Shown here: positions 15,507 to 24,610 of the stretch, piece after piece | Position numbering within the stretch: the first letter of the stretch is position 1 | How the letters are laid out: the number at the start of each line of letters is the position of its first letter | The notes under the pieces: model-generated | What the model saw: the letters and a program-made list of their open reading frames with translations, nothing else | Told to the model about the DNA's origin: nothing | Database searches by the model: none | Position numbers and translations under genes: made by a program | NCBI GenBank assembly: GCA_018401875.1 | Contig: JAGYJZ010000001.1 | Coordinates: 248,001 to 312,000, forward strand | DNA: 64,000 bases | Origin: Salibacteraceae bacterium | GTDB taxonomy: Bacteria; Bacteroidota; Bacteroidia; Flavobacteriales_G; Salibacteraceae | Reading direction: 5' to 3'

Positions 15507-15534
15507 CTTTCAGCTGTCAGATATCAGTTGTCAG
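15507..15534 (-). repeat. Run of four NNNTCAG heptamers (CTGANNN family, minus orientation)
   Basis: CTTTCAG, CTGTCAG, ATATCAG, TTGTCAG in perfect register. The ATATCAG unit is identical to one in the run beside the four-helix-bundle gene at 20954-20988. No gene of that family is nearby, so this is a solo copy. Confidence 0.65.
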
Positions 15535-15758: not shown

Positions 15759-15823
15759 ATCGTGACGTTGTAGCGCACTTGGTGTCCGCTAAACGCGAAC
15801 CCCAATCACGCACACGTCATCGA
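15759..15823 (-). repeat. Second copy of the 65-bp direct repeat, spanning the 3' end of the intact phosphatase gene
   Basis: It lies 114 bases from the copy at 15645-15709. Bases 15789-15823 are coding and 15759-15788 are downstream. The single difference is C/T near the outer end. Confidence 0.85.
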
Positions 15824-17876
15824 GTTGCTCCATTTCACCTCTCCAGGCTTTGAACTCTTGAGTGAGCGTAGCTTTCTGATTTTCCATTGCTTGTTGGGCT
15901 ATTTCAGAAAGTCTTTTTTTGAAATTAGCACTCTTGTATTTTTTACCATTATCTCCACCAAACTGGTCTGAAAATCCATCCGAGAACAGATACAACGTGT
16001 CTCCTTTATTGAGACTGATATTATGTGTTGCAAATGGAGCAGGTGTGAGGTGTTTGCCTATGGGTTGTTTGTCGGCTTTGTACTCTTCGATTTCAGTAGA
16101 GCCGTTTCTTATAATCCACAGCGGATTATAGGCCCCAGCCCATTGCAGTTGATTGGTAGTGGTGTTTAACGCACACAATGATATGTCTATTCCGTCTTTT
16201 ACGTCTTCCTCTGATTTGGCAAATTCTTCTATTACCAATTCGCGGCATTTATCTAAGATTTTCCCAGGATCAGTTAAACCGTATTCCCTTACACTTCGAT
16301 TTAAAGCATTGGAACACACTACGCTCACCATCGCACCTGGTACTCCATGTCCAGTGCAATCGGCAGCGGCAAAATAGACTACATCACCAACAGCCTCGAA
16401 CCAATAGAAATCACCAGCAACGATGTCTTTCGGGAGGTAAAGCACAAATGAATTTGGAAGTTCGTGTTGGATGACTTGATCAGATGGTAAAATAGCTTGC
16501 TGAATCCGCTTTGCGTAAGTGATGGAGTCGATAATTTCTTTGTTTTTAACCGCCAATTCTTCGCTTTTTTCTTCTATTTCAGCGGTGCGCTCTTGCACTT
16601 GTTGTTCGAGCAGCGCGTTCTGCTCTCGTGTTAGTGCATTCAGTTTTTCGAGGTTTTCAAAAGCCTCTTTTTGAGCCTGCTCCTTTTCTCGTTGAATGTA
16701 TCTGTAGCGGCCAACCATGGCCAGCGATAAAAAGGTCACCTCGGCTGCTGAGCCTAACTTGATAGCGTTTTGACTAAGGAAATCACTGTACAGTAAATTA
16801 AAATTGGTGAGAATAAATACGATACCACCAATGAGTACGGAAATGAATCCCAGGGCGAAGAACACGTTGACATTCTTGTTGACTTTTTGATTCCAGCCGA
16901 TTCCGAGCAATATTAACAAGAGAGAAATCAACGACATACCATTAATAATCGGAAATGTAAGTTCGTAAGCGATGCCCGAGCTTAAGCTGGTTATGATGCA
17001 AACAAATACCACAGCGAGTAACGATCTGTAGGTGATTCTATACCATTTTGGCATTTGGCTTATGCGCAGAAACTCTGCAGCATACAGCATGATGGTGAAT
17101 ACCGACCCCGCAGAAAAAAACAGAATTGAATGGTTTGCAATCCAGGGATTTTCTGGCCATAGGTACTCAAATGCCAATCCATCGAGCGAAGCTTGCATGA
17201 AGAACAAGAAAACGACATAGCCAACGTAGTAGGTATATATCCGCTGTTTCACCACAAAAGCAAAGAAGAGGAACAGCTCGACCACAAAAATTAGAAGTCC
17301 GTAATACAACCCAAGGGTGAGGTTTTCGCGCTGCACAAAGCCATTGAAATTTTGCTGATCCCATAATTTGATGGGTAGACTTATTACCTCACCATCGCTG
17401 CGCAATTGGATGAGTAAATCCAAGGTGTCGTTAGGTGCTAATTTAATTGGAAAAACGAATTTTCGATACACCACAGGTCGGTCAGCAAAGGGAAGTTCAT
17501 CACCGGCTTTGAAAAGCAATTGTGCTTTTTCGTTTCGTTCGCGGTACAGATTGATGACATTGGTGAGCGGCCGTGCTACTTCGAGGTAAAAATCTGATTC
17601 TGAATTTTTTGCGTTAGTTAACCTTAGTCGCACCCAATAGGTAGAAGTGGTAAAATTTAGATTTGGTATCGGCTCATCGATGGTTTGAAACGCGTCATCA
17701 TACCTTCCGCTGGCTATTTCTTCAACGGTCCAATTGTGGTTTGGGTCTTCAGCAAGATATGCCGATGTGGCAAGATGCGTATACCGAGGACCATGACTGT
17801 AAGCGCTGCTTGTAGCGAATGTGCTTACAATGCTGAGGAAGACGAAGCGGTTGAATATCGATTTACGTTGCTGCAT
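15789..17876 (-). CDS. 7TM-DISM membrane sensor with SpoIIE/PP2C-type phosphatase domain
   Basis: 695 residues from the ATG at 17876, which starts a signal peptide (MQQRKSIFNRFVFLSIVSTF); a longer open frame upstream adds 40 unlikely residues. An extracellular 7TMR-DISM-type beta domain covers residues about 30-170 and seven membrane helices about 180-400. A coiled coil (EEKSEELAVKNKEIIDS) follows. The C-terminal Ser phosphatase domain has DIVAGDFYW, AAADCTGHGVPGAM and, at the end, LDDVCVIGV, the metal-binding Asp motifs. Such proteins usually dephosphorylate an anti-sigma antagonist; no such gene is beside it. The last 35 coding bases are part of a 65-bp repeat whose second copy lies 114 bases downstream. 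Confidence 0.88.
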   Translation of the reverse strand: MQQRKSIFNRFVFLSIVSTFATSSAYSHGPRYTHLATSAYLAEDPNHNWTVEEIASGRYDDAFQTIDEPIPNLNFTTSTYWVRLRLTNAKNSESDFYLEVARPLTNVINLYRERNEKAQLLFKAGDELPFADRPVVYRKFVFPIKLAPNDTLDLLIQLRSDGEVISLPIKLWDQQNFNGFVQRENLTLGLYYGLLIFVVELFLFFAFVVKQRIYTYYVGYVVFLFFMQASLDGLAFEYLWPENPWIANHSILFFSAGSVFTIMLYAAEFLRISQMPKWYRITYRSLLAVVFVCIITSLSSGIAYELTFPIINGMSLISLLLILLGIGWNQKVNKNVNVFFALGFISVLIGGIVFILTNFNLLYSDFLSQNAIKLGSAAEVTFLSLAMVGRYRYIQREKEQAQKEAFENLEKLNALTREQNALLEQQVQERTAEIEEKSEELAVKNKEIIDSITYAKRIQQAILPSDQVIQHELPNSFVLYLPKDIVAGDFYWFEAVGDVVYFAAADCTGHGVPGAMVSVVCSNALNRSVREYGLTDPGKILDKCRELVIEEFAKSEEDVKDGIDISLCALNTTTNQLQWAGAYNPLWIIRNGSTEIEEYKADKQPIGKHLTPAPFATHNISLNKGDTLYLFSDGFSDQFGGDNGKKYKSANFKKRLSEIAQQAMENQKATLTQEFKAWRGEMEQLDDVCVIGVRV

Positions 17877-18042
17877 TGAGGGCTCTAAAATACGGCTCGA
17901 GTTTCGCAAAGTTGCATGATTCGGTAGATTAACAAAACAAATCATGCATTGTTGCTTGAGGCATTTGGCGAGAAGAGAAGGTTCGAGGTATTTCAAATGC
18001 CGTTTTCAGCTTAAGACGAACAGCTCGATGCTTGAGTATTTA

Positions 18043-19409: not shown

Positions 19410-19541
19410 CCACCTACGCTGAAGCTTCGGTGTCTGAAAAGTGAAGAGATAAAGAGTTGAATAGTTGAAGAGATAGGACCACCTACGCTAATCACATGCG
19501 CCAAGGCTCCAGTGATCGAAGAGCTTCGGTGTCTGAAAAGT
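19410..19541. repeat. Two-part direct repeat in the permease-dinB gap
   Basis: CCACCTACGCT occurs at 19410-19420 and 19479-19489. The 20-base AGCTTCGGTGTCTGAAAAGT occurs at 19423-19442 and 19522-19541. The two modules keep their order but differ in spacing, as if one copy gained about 30 bases. The remainder of the 19348-19729 gap shows no gene. Confidence 0.75.
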
Positions 19542-19679
19542 TGAGGGGTGTTTGGTGTTTCACTGTCACGTAACGTTTGCTCTTAATTATGCACAGTTGG
19601 CTATGGGATATTCGCCATTGCCCAACCTCGTTTCGCGTCTTTTCTTGTTGATAAAAATAATAGCATTAAATCCTTTCCG

Positions 19680-19731
19680 ATGACTAAATACTAAATATTT
19701 TAGCAATCGTTAATAATTGGTTTTTAGTCAT
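19680..19731. promoter_or_regulatory. Inverted repeat ATGACTAAA/TTTAGTCAT around the dinB start, candidate damage-response operator
   Basis: ATGACTAAA at 19680-19688 and TTTAGTCAT at 19723-19731 are perfect inverse complements; the right arm overlaps the dinB ATG. Between them lies CTAAA-TAT-TTTAG (19691-19703). A repressor bound here would cover the translation start. No LexA-like gene is in the window. Confidence 0.4.
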
Positions 19732-20953
19732 GGATAATAAACGGTCAAAGCAAATTCTACACCTCGATCTCGACTCATTTTTTGTGTCGGTAGAGCGGCT
19801 GCTCGACAGTCAACTCAACAATAGGCCAGTGTTGATTGGCGGAACTACCGACCGTGGCGTGGTGGCTGCGTGCAGTTATGAAGCGCGTGCTTTTGGTATT
19901 CATTCGGCCATGCCCATGCGCATGGCGCGAGAGCTTTGCCCTGAGGCTATTGTGATAAAGGGCAACAGTGGCACTTATTCTAAGTACAGCGACATGGTTA
20001 CTGAAATCATGCAAGAGTCGTTGCCCGTACTTGAAAAAACATCGGTAGATGAGTTTTATGCCGACCTCACCGGCATGGATCGTTTCTTTGGCTGCAATAA
20101 AATGGCCAGCGAACTGCGTCAGCGCATTATCAAAGAAACAGGCTTACCCAATTCGTTTGGCTTATCGATCAACAAAACAGTTTCTAAAGTGGCTACAGGC
20201 GAGGCAAAGCCCAATAATCAGTTGGAGGTTCTTCGCGGACAAGAGAAGCATTTTTTAGCACCGCTTTCGGTGAGGAAAATACCGATGGTGGGCGAGAAGA
20301 CCTACCAAACGTTGCGCAATTTGGGGATTCAGCGCATTAAAACCATCCAAGAAATGCCGCAGGACATGATGCAGCAAGTGTTGGGGCAAAATGGCGATGC
20401 GATTTGGAAAAAGGCCAATGGCATCGACAATAGCCTTGTTATTCCTTACAATGAACGCAAGAGCATCAGCACCGAACGCACCTTTGATCGCGACACAACA
20501 GACGTGGTGAAGCTGAAAGGAATTATGCTTGCTATGGCTGAAAACTTGGCTTTTCAGTTGCGCAGAGGCAAGAAACTCACAGGCTGTGTAACGGTAAAAG
20601 TGCGCTATTCTGACTTTCAAACCCAAACCCTGCAAGCCCGCATTCCATACACCTCGGCCGATCATATTTTGATTGAAAAGGTGATGGAGCTTTTCGCACG
20701 GGCTTACAATCGCAGGTTGTTGGTACGCTTGATAGGCGTGCGATTCAGCCACCTGGTGGGTGGTGGTTATCAAATCAACTTGTTTGAAGACAGTGAAGAA
20801 TACATCAACTTGTATCAAGCCATGGATAAAATCCGTGAGCGCTTTGGCGATCGCGCTGTGATGCGTGCCTCAGGACTCGGTGCACGCACCATCAGCCGCA
20901 GCAATCCTTTCAATGGAAAAGCTCCGATGTTGTTGGCGAATAGGAGGAGTTAG
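19730..20953 (+). CDS. dinB: Y-family DNA polymerase IV
   Basis: 407 residues. The palm motif ILHLDLDSFFVSVERLLD (residues about 9-26) carries the first catalytic acids and the second site is TSVDEFYADLTGMD (about 105-118). YEARAFGIHSAMPMRMAREL is the fingers segment, SKVATGEAKPNNQLEVL the thumb approach, and a little-finger domain occupies the C-terminal third. The enzyme performs error-prone bypass of damaged bases. Its stop at 20953 is immediately followed by the heptamer repeats of an inserted element, beyond which lies dnaE2 on the same strand. dinB-dnaE2 pairs act as damage-induced mutagenesis cassettes in many bacteria, so the two were probably once adjacent. Confidence 0.93.
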   Translation: MDNKRSKQILHLDLDSFFVSVERLLDSQLNNRPVLIGGTTDRGVVAACSYEARAFGIHSAMPMRMARELCPEAIVIKGNSGTYSKYSDMVTEIMQESLPVLEKTSVDEFYADLTGMDRFFGCNKMASELRQRIIKETGLPNSFGLSINKTVSKVATGEAKPNNQLEVLRGQEKHFLAPLSVRKIPMVGEKTYQTLRNLGIQRIKTIQEMPQDMMQQVLGQNGDAIWKKANGIDNSLVIPYNERKSISTERTFDRDTTDVVKLKGIMLAMAENLAFQLRRGKKLTGCVTVKVRYSDFQTQTLQARIPYTSADHILIEKVMELFARAYNRRLLVRLIGVRFSHLVGGGYQINLFEDSEEYINLYQAMDKIRERFGDRAVMRASGLGARTISRSNPFNGKAPMLLANRRS

Positions 20954-20988
20954 ATGTCAGATATCAGTTTTCAGCCTTCAGTTATCAG
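20954..20988 (-). repeat. Five NNNTCAG heptamers at the left edge of the four-helix-bundle element
   Basis: ATGTCAG, ATATCAG, TTTTCAG, CCTTCAG, TTATCAG in perfect register, starting at the base after the dinB stop. The first three are the exact inverse complement, in order, of CTGAAAA-CTGATAT-CTGACAT at 21390-21410 and 21446-21466. That is a 21-base perfect inverted repeat around the gene at 21024-21386. Confidence 0.85.
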
Positions 20989-21023
20989 GTTTTAGAAGGT
21001 AGGTTTAATAGGTTAAAAAAGTA

Positions 21024-21386
21024 ATGATGAAGAATTTTAAGCAATTGAAAATTTGGCAAACAGGCAAGGAAATAGCTCTAGCTACTTATAGATTGTCGCA
21101 AACATTAGATAGAAGTGAATCTTTCACTTTTAGTTCTCAAATTACGAGAGCAGCTCTATCCATTCCATCAAACATTGCAGAGGGAAGTAGTAGGAAAAGT
21201 AAAAAGGATTATGCTCGATTTATTGAAATAGCGCTAGGATCTTCTTTTGAGCTTGAGACGCAGTTGGAAATTATCAGTGAGTTAGAGATTGTTTCGAAAT
21301 CAGAAGTAGACCAACTTATTGAACTAATCAATGAAGAGCAACGCATGCTCTATGGCTTCCTTAAAGTCCTGAAAACTGAAAACTGA
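21024..21386 (+). CDS. Four-helix-bundle protein (23S rRNA intervening-sequence protein/Avd-like family)
   Basis: 120 residues. The family signature is present: KQLKIWQTGKEIALATYRLS, FTFSSQITRAALSIPSNIAEGSSR, then FIEIALGSSFELETQLEIIS. Known relatives are proteins from intervening sequences in 23S rRNA genes, and Avd of diversity-generating retroelements, a helper that binds RNA and reverse transcriptase. No reverse transcriptase or variable repeat is seen here. The gene is bracketed by CTGANNN heptamers in opposite orientation, and its last 18 coding bases already belong to the right-hand heptamer array. The whole 20954-21522 unit sits precisely between dinB and dnaE2. It therefore looks like a small mobile or passenger element; what moves it is unknown. 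Confidence 0.85.
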   Translation: MMKNFKQLKIWQTGKEIALATYRLSQTLDRSESFTFSSQITRAALSIPSNIAEGSSRKSKKDYARFIEIALGSSFELETQLEIISELEIVSKSEVDQLIELINEEQRMLYGFLKVLKTEN

Positions 21387-21522
21387 CATCTGAAAACTGA
21401 TATCTGACATCTGAAAACTGACATCTGACATCTGAAAACTGACATCTGAAAACTGATATCTGACATCTGAAAACTGACATCTGACATCTGACATCTGAAA
21501 ACTGACATCTGAAAGCTGATAC
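21369..21522 (+). repeat. Array of 22 CTGANNN heptamers, right edge of the element
   Basis: Twenty-two 7-base units follow without gaps. The variable triplet is AAA (9 units), CAT (9), TAT (2), with AAG and TAC in the last two. The first two and part of the third unit are coding for the end of the four-helix-bundle protein. The array ends one base before the dnaE2 TTG start and puts TGA in each frame every three units. Internal order shows a repeated 8-unit (56-base) block, so it grew by slippage or unequal exchange. Confidence 0.95.
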
Positions 21523-21523
21523 C

Positions 21524-24500
21524 TTGCTCCTAAACACCCACACATATTACTCCTTTAAGTTCGGTACGTGGAAGCCGGAAAACCTCATCAAGCAAGTGAT
21601 TGATTGGGGTTACGAATCGCTATGCGTTACCGACATCAACAACACCTCGGCTTGCTTAGACAGCATGCGGCTGGGGCAGAAGCACGGACTAAAAGTGATT
21701 CCCGGTGTCGACTTTAGAAATGGAGTGCAGCAGCAGTTTGTGGCTATAGCCCAAAACAACCGTGGCTTTGAAAATATCAATCGCTTTTTGACGAAGCATT
21801 TACACAGCAAAGAACCCATTCCGGATATAGCGCCCGAAATGGAAGATGTGATCGTGATTTATCCTTTTGGTAGAGCACTTCCTCCCAACTCGCTCCTCGC
21901 AACTCGTTCGTTAATTGGTATTCAGCCTCATGAGCTTTCACGCCTGCGGTTTTCGCCATTGCGGCATGAGATTGATCGCTTGGTGATGTTGCCAACGGTG
22001 TCGTTTCAAACCAAAAAGGACTTTAATGCACATCGCTTATTGCGCGCCATTGATGCGAATTTACTGCTCAGTAAACTTCCAAAATCAGAAGAAGGCGATC
22101 CACGTCATGTACTCGTATCGAAAGCCGATTTAATCCATCAATACCAAGAATTTCCGCAGATTGTAAGCAATACCCAAGCGCTAGTAGAGCAATGCGAAGT
22201 TTCGTTTCAGTTTGGTGATGGCATTCCCCCGAAAAATAAGTCGACATACACGGGAAGTAGAGAAGGTGATTTTGAACGCATTCAGCACTTGTGTGAGGAG
22301 GGTTTGTCATACCGTTACCCGGAGATTAACGACAACATCACTTCGCGCATTGAGAAAGAATTAGAGATCATCCGCGATAAAGATTTTATGTCGTATTTCT
22401 TGATCAATCACGACATTGTTTCTTACGCACGAAGTAAAGGATACTTCTATGTGGGGCGCGGAAGTGGCGCGAATAGTATTATTGCTTACTTGCTGAGAAT
22501 CACTGATGTTGATCCAATCGACTTAGATTTATACTTTGAGCGATTCATTAACCTCTATCGAAGGAATCCACCGGACTTTGACATTGATTTTTCGTGGACT
22601 GACCGAGACGATATTACCCGCTATATTTTCGAGCGATTCCCGAATTCGGCTTTGCTGGCAACCTACAGTACATTTCAATACCGTGCGGTAGTGCGCGAAC
22701 TTGGAAAAGTGTTTGGACTGCCTAAGCACGAAATCGATAAGTTGTCGAAAGGCGATTTCAATATGAATCGACTGGATAAACTTTCGCAGTTGGTGTTGAA
22801 ATACGGCTCTTTGATTCAGGACTTTCCCAGTCATTTAAGCATCCACGCGGGTGGTATTTTGATTTCTGAAAAGCCGATTGAGCATTATACCGCCACATTT
22901 ATGCCGCCTAAAGGTTATCCTACAACACAGTTTGACATGGTCGTTGCTGAAGATGTTGGGCTTTACAAGTTTGATATTTTAAGTCAACGCGGCTTGGGTA
23001 AGATTAAAGATGCTGTCGTGAATGTGAATCGAAACAACCCTGAGAATACAATTGATATCCACGATTTAGCACGATTCAAACAGGATGAAGCGGTGAAGGA
23101 AATGCTGCGAAACGGCAAGGCCATCGGTTGCTTTTATGTGGAATCGCCCGCCATGCGTATGTTGCTTTCAAAGCTGCGTGTTGATGATTATTTGGGTCTT
23201 GTAGCTGCGAGCTCAATCATCAGGCCTGGCGTGGCAAAGTCAGGAATGATGCGCGAATACATCAAGCGCTTTCGCGACCCTGAGGAACGTAAAAAAGCAC
23301 ATCCCATCATGTTGGATATTATGCCCGACACGTTCGGTGTGATGGTGTATCAAGAAGATGTGATCAAGGTGGCGCACTATTTTGCTGGACTTACGCTGGG
23401 CGAAGCTGACGTGTTGCGCAGAGGCATGAGTGGGAAATATCGTTCGCGCGAAGAATTTGAACACGCCAAAGAAGCCTTTTTTCGAAAAGCATTAGCCAAA
23501 GGCCATCCTCCAATTATGGTGGAAGAGGTGTGGCGTCAAACGGAAAGTTTTGCCGGCTACGCCTTCGCTAAAGGGCATTCAGCATCGTATGCGGTAGAAA
23601 GTTACCAAAGTTTGTTTTTGAAGGCGCATTACCCTTTAGAATACATGGTGGCAACGCTCAATAATTCAGGTGGTTTTTATCGTCCTGAGTTTTATGTGCA
23701 CGAAGCTCGTATGCACGGAGCTGATATTCAGGCGCCTTGCGTTAATCGCAGCGAGGCGGGGGCGGTGGTTAGCGGCAAAACAATCTACCTCGGATTGTCA
23801 AGCGTAAAGGAATTGGAAACGAAAACTATAACGTGGATTTACGAGGCGAGGCAGGAGCGAGGCAGTTTCGAGTCGTTGGTCGATTTTACTGAGCGCGTTC
23901 CATTAGGCATCGAGCAATTGACCATCTTGGTAAAAGCGGGTGCGTTCCGATTTACAGGTAAAAGCAAGAAGGAGTTAACGTGGGAAGCACACCTCACACT
24001 GGGCAAAGTCAAAAAACGCAGTGTCGCACCAAAGTTGTTTTCAGAAAAATCAAAACCCTTTGAATTTCCAGCGTTTTACACTGCTCCGCTCGAAGAGGCA
24101 TACGATCAAATTGAGCTGTTTGGCTATCCTCTCTGCGATCCGTTTTTACTATTGAAGCGATCTCCTAAGGGTGGGGTGTTGGCCGCTGATTTGTTTGAAT
24201 TTGTAACCCAAACCGTGGTGGCGTATGGTTATTTGGTGACGGTGAAAGATTCAAAAACAGCCGATGGGAAGCGCATGCAGTTCGGAACGTTCTTAGACCG
24301 CAAAGGCTTCTTCTTAGATACAGTGCATTTTCCGCCCGTTGCGGCAAAGTATCCGTTTCGTGGGCGTGGTGTGTACCGCATCATTGGCAAGGTGATGGAA
24401 GAATTCGGTTTTTATTCCATCGAAGTGGGGGAGTGCTACAAAGAAGATATTATTGAAGATCCGCGCTACAGCGAAGAAAAGAACATCAAAAAGCCCGAGC

Positions 24501-24610
24501 GAAAAAACTACCGAGAAGACCTAAATGCTGAGGTTTCAACAACCAACGTCAACAAGAATGCACGGTATTTTGAGAAGAATAAACCCAAGGTTCGCAAGGA
24601 AAATACTTAA
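21524..24610 (+). CDS. dnaE2: Error-prone DNA polymerase III alpha subunit
   Basis: 1028 residues. The start is the TTG at 21524; the nearest in-frame stop upstream is inside the heptamer array, leaving no ATG. The N-terminal PHP domain begins at once (NTHTYYSFKFGTWKPENLIK). The C-family polymerase core has YFYVGRGSGANSIIAYLLRI and the catalytic PPDFDIDFSW near residues 348-357. FAGYAFAKGHSASYAVESYQ is the fingers segment and an OB domain lies at the C-terminus. The length and close dinB linkage suit the error-prone second DnaE (ImuC/DnaE2 type). Its original 5' leader may have been displaced by the inserted array, which could change expression. Confidence 0.92.
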   Translation: MLLNTHTYYSFKFGTWKPENLIKQVIDWGYESLCVTDINNTSACLDSMRLGQKHGLKVIPGVDFRNGVQQQFVAIAQNNRGFENINRFLTKHLHSKEPIPDIAPEMEDVIVIYPFGRALPPNSLLATRSLIGIQPHELSRLRFSPLRHEIDRLVMLPTVSFQTKKDFNAHRLLRAIDANLLLSKLPKSEEGDPRHVLVSKADLIHQYQEFPQIVSNTQALVEQCEVSFQFGDGIPPKNKSTYTGSREGDFERIQHLCEEGLSYRYPEINDNITSRIEKELEIIRDKDFMSYFLINHDIVSYARSKGYFYVGRGSGANSIIAYLLRITDVDPIDLDLYFERFINLYRRNPPDFDIDFSWTDRDDITRYIFERFPNSALLATYSTFQYRAVVRELGKVFGLPKHEIDKLSKGDFNMNRLDKLSQLVLKYGSLIQDFPSHLSIHAGGILISEKPIEHYTATFMPPKGYPTTQFDMVVAEDVGLYKFDILSQRGLGKIKDAVVNVNRNNPENTIDIHDLARFKQDEAVKEMLRNGKAIGCFYVESPAMRMLLSKLRVDDYLGLVAASSIIRPGVAKSGMMREYIKRFRDPEERKKAHPIMLDIMPDTFGVMVYQEDVIKVAHYFAGLTLGEADVLRRGMSGKYRSREEFEHAKEAFFRKALAKGHPPIMVEEVWRQTESFAGYAFAKGHSASYAVESYQSLFLKAHYPLEYMVATLNNSGGFYRPEFYVHEARMHGADIQAPCVNRSEAGAVVSGKTIYLGLSSVKELETKTITWIYEARQERGSFESLVDFTERVPLGIEQLTILVKAGAFRFTGKSKKELTWEAHLTLGKVKKRSVAPKLFSEKSKPFEFPAFYTAPLEEAYDQIELFGYPLCDPFLLLKRSPKGGVLAADLFEFVTQTVVAYGYLVTVKDSKTADGKRMQFGTFLDRKGFFLDTVHFPPVAAKYPFRGRGVYRIIGKVMEEFGFYSIEVGECYKEDIIEDPRYSEEKNIKKPERKNYREDLNAEVSTTNVNKNARYFEKNKPKVRKENT

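Follow-up and report, generated by a model that had tools for sequence, protein, structure and literature searches.

Between the polymerase genes dinB and dnaE2 of a Salibacteraceae bacterium lies a small gene bracketed by heptamer repeats that face each other, which raises the question of whether gene and repeats together form a genetic element, and if so, of what kind. The locus was analysed within a stretch of 64,000 nucleotides of the genome (hereafter the window), in which a sequence-only reading had proposed a small mobile element with ends built from CTGANNN heptamers. On balance, we favour the reading that the unit is a member of a widespread class of about 450–600 bp, in which one IVS gene is enclosed by two long inverted arrays of element-specific units of about 7 bp, borne in a hairpin and mobile in evolution.

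An IVS gene in a predicted hairpin

The locus comprises the following parts.

19730–20953, + strand: dinB, upstream host gene, Y-family polymerase (open reading frame list and profile match)
20952–21412, + strand: minimal hairpin unit of 461 nt, measured between the outermost bases of the perfect 23-bp inverted arms; the gene lies in its loop
20957–20988, − strand: left arm, five heptamers NNNTCAG (CTGANNN on the − strand)
21024–21386, + strand: IVS-protein gene (S23p), 120 residues, PF05635/TIGR02436 four-helix bundle
21369–21519, + strand: right arm, 22 heptamers CTGANNN, inverted relative to the left arm
21524–24610, + strand: dnaE2, downstream host gene, DNA polymerase III alpha family, start codon TTG at 21524

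The assignment of the enclosed gene to the IVS-protein fold family, already made in the sequence-only reading, is confirmed by matches of its product to PF05635 (E 2.4e-34; 118.2 bits against a curated cut-off of 33.8) and to TIGR02436, ‘four helix bundle protein’ (E 5.2e-34; 116.7 bits against a cut-off of 24), and among solved structures PDB entry 2gsc is the best relative at the sequence level (E 7.6e-19). It is the sole listed open reading frame of at least 80 residues between the arms.

The five left and 22 right heptamers were found in the numbers originally given. The pattern of three consecutive CTGA units has 26 matches in the window compared with a mean of 0.04 in shuffled sequences; this count, together with the null sets of mismatched flanks described below, rules out a chance origin of the heptamers. 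The inverted match reported earlier as 21 bases is indeed perfect, but extends over 23 bases, 20952–20974 being the reverse complement of 21390–21412 and also of 21446–21468. Longer, imperfect arms are 86% complementary over 44 nt and 77% over 65 nt, so that the description of the ends as inverted heptamer arrays holds. The unit fills the dinB–dnaE2 gap as had been claimed, with minor corrections: the inverted match starts 2 bases inside the dinB stop codon, and at the other end the last CTGA is separated from the dnaE2 start by four bases. As the 3′ end of the IVS gene lies within the right array, the last residues (LKTEN) and the stop codon of this gene are heptamer-encoded. For the RNA of positions 20945–21530, a single hairpin is predicted in which the left arm pairs with the right arm around the gene (z −2.97), and none of 100 shuffled sequences was predicted to fold as stably. 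No Rfam matches were found in 19500–22500.

The genome of the window (G000) contains two PF05635 genes, and a search for the CTGA unit alone returned no arrays near the second. Other CTGA arrays of at least four units are present at 13 places, and among the arrays of this genome seven are one identical 25-base string, with three more differing from it by one base. The 25-base array CTGACAACTGATATCTGACARCTGA, with the same unit order and no IVS gene, is found at window positions 15510–15534 and at places in contigs C1, C3, C10, C23 and C32. Two gene-less heptamer hairpins on contig C33 (locus L041, 2069–2128 and 5374–5424) each sit in frame within a coding gene, in one case mutase-like and in the other SpoIIE/PP2C-like (both named by eye), and the related window gene (15789–17996) is devoid of the insert. 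At C23:180782 and C3:80273, a gene order that is continuous in sister species is split over two contigs, and both contig ends are near a CTGA array, as if the arrays were break points.

Inverted arms and their dialects

Arms were scored for IVS genes in general as the inverted-repeat match between the upstream and downstream flanks of a gene, with mismatched flank pairs as the null. The Bacteroidia set consisted of 89 of 90 loci (88 without the window locus), which represent the better-scoring part of one IVS list and not a random sample. All genome collections used contain one genome per species. With repeats ignored and the window locus left out, 60/88 genes exceeded the 95% null level and 47/88 the 99% level (61/89 and 48/89 with the window locus included), while the inverted arms of the other 28 were not significant. 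The set from other phyla, 39 of 40 IVS loci, was drawn from genomes chosen for holding the CTGA pattern described below; 36 of these 39 passed the 95% level and 28 the 99% level, and after removal of the eight loci that are themselves CTGA-pattern stretches the counts were 29 and 24 of 31. Inverted arms were detected in 0/26 other open reading frames and in 0/26 ParE toxin genes (26 of 30 loci used). The self-similarity of the flanks peaks at lags of 7, 14 and 21 in Bacteroidia and in other phyla, and among the 61 of 89 elements with an arm score of at least 24, which made up the set for periods and arm similarities, the best period of the units is 7 in 43 and 8 in 10. The arms also have a base bias, with C scarce on the left (10.9%) and G scarce on the right (10.0%). 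Inverted arms of ~7-bp units around IVS genes are a general rule, and what varies is the specific heptamer.

Units differ between elements, even within one genome, and include TTAGNNN, CTAGNNN, GGTTTCA and GCAGTTG. CTGANNN, which the sequence-only reading had taken as the hallmark, was therefore rejected as the defining signature: among the first 30 best IVS loci, the window locus alone had inward CTGA arrays on both sides, and most IVS genes examined carry other units, which the inverted-arm test brought out. CTGANNN is one dialect among several, and the dialect goes with the protein. Arm similarity climbs with protein identity, with a mean of 15.6 for the 65 pairs at 50% identity or more, compared with 10.9 for permuted arms; without pairs from within one genome or within the genus of the window, the mean is 14.7 for 51 pairs against 10.9, and 0 of 2000 permutations reached the observed similarity in either test. 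Arms of the GGTTTCA type are common to IVS genes of three families with 54–60% protein identity, and those of the GCAGTTG type to another group. In the closest within-genome pair among the genes fetched (protein 83% identical), DNA homology reaches no further than ~15 nt beyond the gene, and the arms have thus diverged. Concerted evolution of arms is not claimed; the scores were mixed, with one suggestive trio (L097, L132 and L105).

Proteins that share the CTGA dialect reach up to 79% identity across phyla, although metagenome binning errors may contribute and one member of the best-matching pair is a short contig (L204). On the tree of these proteins, phylum labels require 33 changes, fewer than in any shuffle (mean 42, minimum 37), which would indicate some phylum signal and much mixing, subject to the same possible binning errors. 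The eight CTGA-dialect genes of Bacteroidota do not cluster on the tree within that phylum (6 changes compared with 7.8 in shuffles), and repeated origin or uptake of one dialect is therefore possible.

The converse view was obtained by scanning for three TCAG heptamers, a gap of 366–396 bases and three CTGA heptamers, regardless of gene content. In the class sample, 4/295 genomes contain the pattern, with an IVS gene in the genome of the window, in G085 and in G096, and with no IVS gene at both places of G247. In a collection of 84,980 species, at least 119 stretches have the pattern, and a PF05635-like open reading frame lies between the arrays in 56 of the 119 stretches listed, across many phyla, as judged with a hidden Markov model built from the window protein and its matches among those very stretches; all ten scan frames re-checked against PF05635 itself were over the curated cut-off. 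The other 63 listed stretches, in which no IVS gene was recognised, include repeat-dense regions and other sequence. The everted pattern served as a control and was sought in 80 genomes with the inward one; it occurs at seven places in six genomes, and at none of the seven is there an IVS gene (Fisher p 0.017 against the inward pattern). Eight stretches with the pattern are in viral contigs. The window protein has no match in 50,697 phage records, and 17 plasmid records with matches, 16 of them cyanobacterial, are all below 60% identity.

These results bear on the possibility that the heptamer arrays are independent repeat tracts in which IVS genes merely land or are tolerated. Gene-less CTGA arrays are common, as the 13 other places in the genome of the window illustrate, repeats are dense in several of the pattern matches, and TAACTGA arrays occur in other bacteria (PMC4679880); however, each element has arms that are inverted and match each other, the everted arrays contain no IVS gene, other small genes lack arms and the dialect goes with the protein. 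This explanation, weakened already, is regarded as highly improbable. A gene-in-hairpin design that recurs with differing heptamers in many unrelated bacteria suggests instead a widespread, overlooked small wandering element.

Occupied and empty junctions

IVS genes are present in 48/60 genomes of relatives of the window (its own included). In Bacteroidia, the upstream neighbour of the IVS gene is on the same strand in 83/85 cases, compared with a baseline of 58/82 (p 1.7e-10), and the downstream neighbour in 75/87 (p 9e-4 against the same baseline); outside Bacteroidota the strand bias (29/37 and 30/38) is not above baseline. Values of dN/dS are 0.05–0.11 in 7/9 pairs of IVS genes, with dS above 1 in five of these seven and saturated in the other two pairs, and the substitution pattern indicates that the IVS protein is under purifying selection in the pairs compared.

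A comparison of dinB–dnaE2 junctions, in which an empty one would support an insertion, had been proposed along with the original description, and was carried out on 15 genomes with both genes on the fetched stretch, nine of them with dinB at least 83% identical. At the junction, an IVS gene is present in five of these nine closer genomes (G000, G008, G006, G009 and G015); of the remaining four, one is empty (G011, ~106 bp with no gene), G007 has other sequence and G004 and G005 have DUF559-like genes. The six more distant genomes gave no IVS match. The outcomes named beforehand as contrary to an element, i.e., the gene at this junction in all relatives with no heptamers, or heptamers with no link to the gene family, were not found. 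The junction copies of G000 and G008 are orthologous (90% identical), and the G015 copy, at 71% identity, is without clear heptamers. In G006 and G009, however, the junction proteins are only 55–59% identical to that of the window, although dinB is 96% and 89% identical, and the arms are CTAG-type, unlike the window dialect.

Two other junctions are filled in some and empty in other related species. Site A holds an IVS unit in G006 and 44–88 bp in G004, G005, G007, G010 and G012, with other inserts in G011, G003 and G002. Site B holds IVS units in G008 and G009 and 36–64 bp in G002, G003, G005, G006, G011 and G012, and in G001 and G004 it is occupied by longer heptamer-bearing stretches with no gene. 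As site B is occupied in both G008 and G009, the units at sites A and B may go back to older insertions that were lost several times, and the sequences could accommodate repeated gain and repeated loss alike. Neither a target-site duplication nor a clean ancestral junction was identified at the sites compared.

We consider in this light whether the IVS gene is not mobile at present, but is an operon passenger or regulator, its arms being an mRNA structure bound for self-control and its patchiness the result of loss and ordinary horizontal transfer of segments. Purifying selection on the protein, the sense orientation in operons, the linkage of dialect and protein and the orthologous junction copies kept in G000 and G008 all agree with such a role. 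It is nevertheless judged unlikely in view of the divergent proteins and dialects at the G006 and G009 junctions next to conserved dinB genes, the empty sites between related species and the cross-phylum matches of up to 79%, for which binning errors are possible. For the mobile element favoured here, the original proposal has gained strength as regards the element, through 56 of the 119 stretches listed and 60 of 88 IVS genes with arms; we infer the mobility of the units from comparison of sequences, and likewise the putative route of movement.

Several other inserts were encountered at these sites. In G003, site A contains a 478-nt insert (L401) with inverted GAATNNC-type heptamers, for which the genome search reported no IVS match, and which is possibly a gene-less unit or one with other cargo. 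DUF559-like genes are located at the dinB–dnaE2 junction or just before dnaE2 in three related species (L211, L214 and G003:C6:57811), and heptamers flank such a gene in the junction copy of G004 and, by eye, in that of G005. DUF559 is a weak candidate for a second cargo of the same element: inverted flanks were detected in 7/11 genes tested (those with an open frame below 250 residues and full flanks, from 37 listed matches), where their own mismatched pairs pass at 16%, and most of the flanks are of a CCCCTCT/GAGGGG type that gives no signal at lag 7. Two species of the genus, G007 and G009, contain a separate repeat family in high copy number, with members of up to ~375 bp; it is represented by L257 (1–375) of G007, which has ~40 partial matches in either genome. 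This site was left out of the site comparison, its flanks matching many repeats.

Relation to known elements and a working model

The sequence-only reading knew of no named element of this design. IVS elements in 23S rRNA, described with an S23p open reading frame in Coxiella, Leptospira and Brucella, nevertheless share the plan of a reading frame in a stem, and in Coxiella even heptamers (PMC4990558, in the portions available, also for the statements that follow). The Coxiella IVS is ~430 nt long, its complementary termini form a stem with the reading frame in the loop and in sense, and tandem heptamers GACAGAT precede the reading frame in a copy number that varies by strain. Elements of this kind are patchy, are thought to be horizontally acquired, and reside inside 23S rRNA helices, from which they are cut out by RNase III; whether they are or were mobile has been debated since the early 1990s and is described there as unanswered. 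The window unit has the same protein family and, by sequence and predicted fold, the same arrangement of an S23p reading frame in the loop of a stem of complementary termini. It differs in having heptamer arrays of an element-specific unit as both arms, and in that it lies between dinB and dnaE2 and not in helix 9, 25 or 45 of 23S rRNA; as the defining rRNA location is absent, it is not filed as a 23S rRNA IVS. The Coxiella reading frame is, moreover, argued to be probably not expressed and decaying, in contrast to the reading frames compared here, which are under purifying selection. We propose by analogy that the window unit is an intergenic relative of the 23S rRNA IVS that would work alike, with a transcript hairpin making the insertion harmless and the protein serving spread.

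Heptamer repeats of other kinds are on record. Direct repeats of TAACTGA are intergenic in Bacteroidetes, cyanobacteria and Beggiatoaceae, with indels mostly in 7-nt steps and their spread unexplained (MacGregor 2015, PMC4679880). They resemble the window arrays as intergenic heptamer arrays, but consist of one exact heptamer, mostly direct and before start codons in the organisms stressed, and the available text of that report makes no connection with IVS genes or with pairs of inverted arms; the window units are CTGANNN with mixed NNN and not exact TAACTGA arrays. In the P6b stem of the Nostoc tRNA-Leu intron, as far as the accessible description goes, degenerate heptanucleotide repeats of varying copy number pair into an RNA hairpin, as is predicted for the window unit, however, this stem is part of an intron and has no gene in its loop (PMC3488679). 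Avd of diversity-generating retroelements is described, in the accessible part of the source, as a structural relative of PF05635 that works with a reverse transcriptase (PMC10053308). The Avd model gives 23.5 bits on the window protein, far below its cut-off of 80, and no reverse transcriptase or template repeat is apparent within the window unit, unlike in these retroelements.

The unit is likewise distinct from an insertion sequence or autonomous DNA transposon, since no transposase is among the listed reading frames of at least 80 residues between its inverted repeats. MITEs and REPINs/RAYT systems are small, intergenic elements with inverted ends that are probably moved in trans. The window unit is also small and intergenic with inverted ends, but carries a conserved gene that is not a transposase, and no end sequence appears to be common to different units. 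IVS units of one genome have different arms; the gene-less CTGA arrays share their unit order. A classical DNA element of this type, with arms as terminal inverted repeats, a transposase supplied in trans and the IVS protein as accessory or cargo, would account for the inverted ends, the intergenic and the empty sites, the gene-less heptamer hairpins in the genome of the window and the gene-less heptamer stretches at site B in G001 and G004. We hold it to be decidedly unlikely, given the strong orientation bias in Bacteroidia and the lack of a transposase-sized reading frame inside the unit; furthermore, since the arms differ among elements of one genome, a single sequence-specific transposase is hard to reconcile with them.

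For the hairpin-borne element that we favour, the following mechanism is envisaged. The unit would sit in sense inside a host operon and, since it has no evident promoter of its own, would be transcribed from the upstream gene. The two arms are predicted to base-pair in the transcript as a long stem that leaves the gene in its loop. This structure would separate the element from its neighbours, probably by serving as a substrate of RNase III as in 23S rRNA IVS elements, and because of this separation the insertion would be tolerated. The IVS protein would recognise its own arms or hairpin and, jointly with a cellular enzyme acting in trans, may assist the copying of the unit to new sites. Our first guess for this enzyme is a reverse transcriptase, a natural partner of a protein that is kin to Avd.

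More tentatively, and with a little less than even confidence, we extend this to the family as a whole: PF05635 genes outside rRNA would be the core of undescribed small selfish elements in operons of many phyla, protein and matching heptamer arms would travel together as a private recognition code copied via the transcript, and rRNA IVS would be rare members that landed in 23S genes. In the open-licence PubMed Central literature, as far as its text was accessible, no link was found between PF05635 genes outside rRNA and paired heptamer arms; a 23S rRNA IVP is named in a legend of CRISPR-linked proteins in the available part of one paper (PMC10910872). The rule that an IVS protein goes with an element-specific heptamer hairpin gives a testable role to a common, conserved family with no known function, and connects intergenic heptamer repeats with rRNA IVS elements, while the dialects offer natural differences in specificity among pairs of protein and arms.
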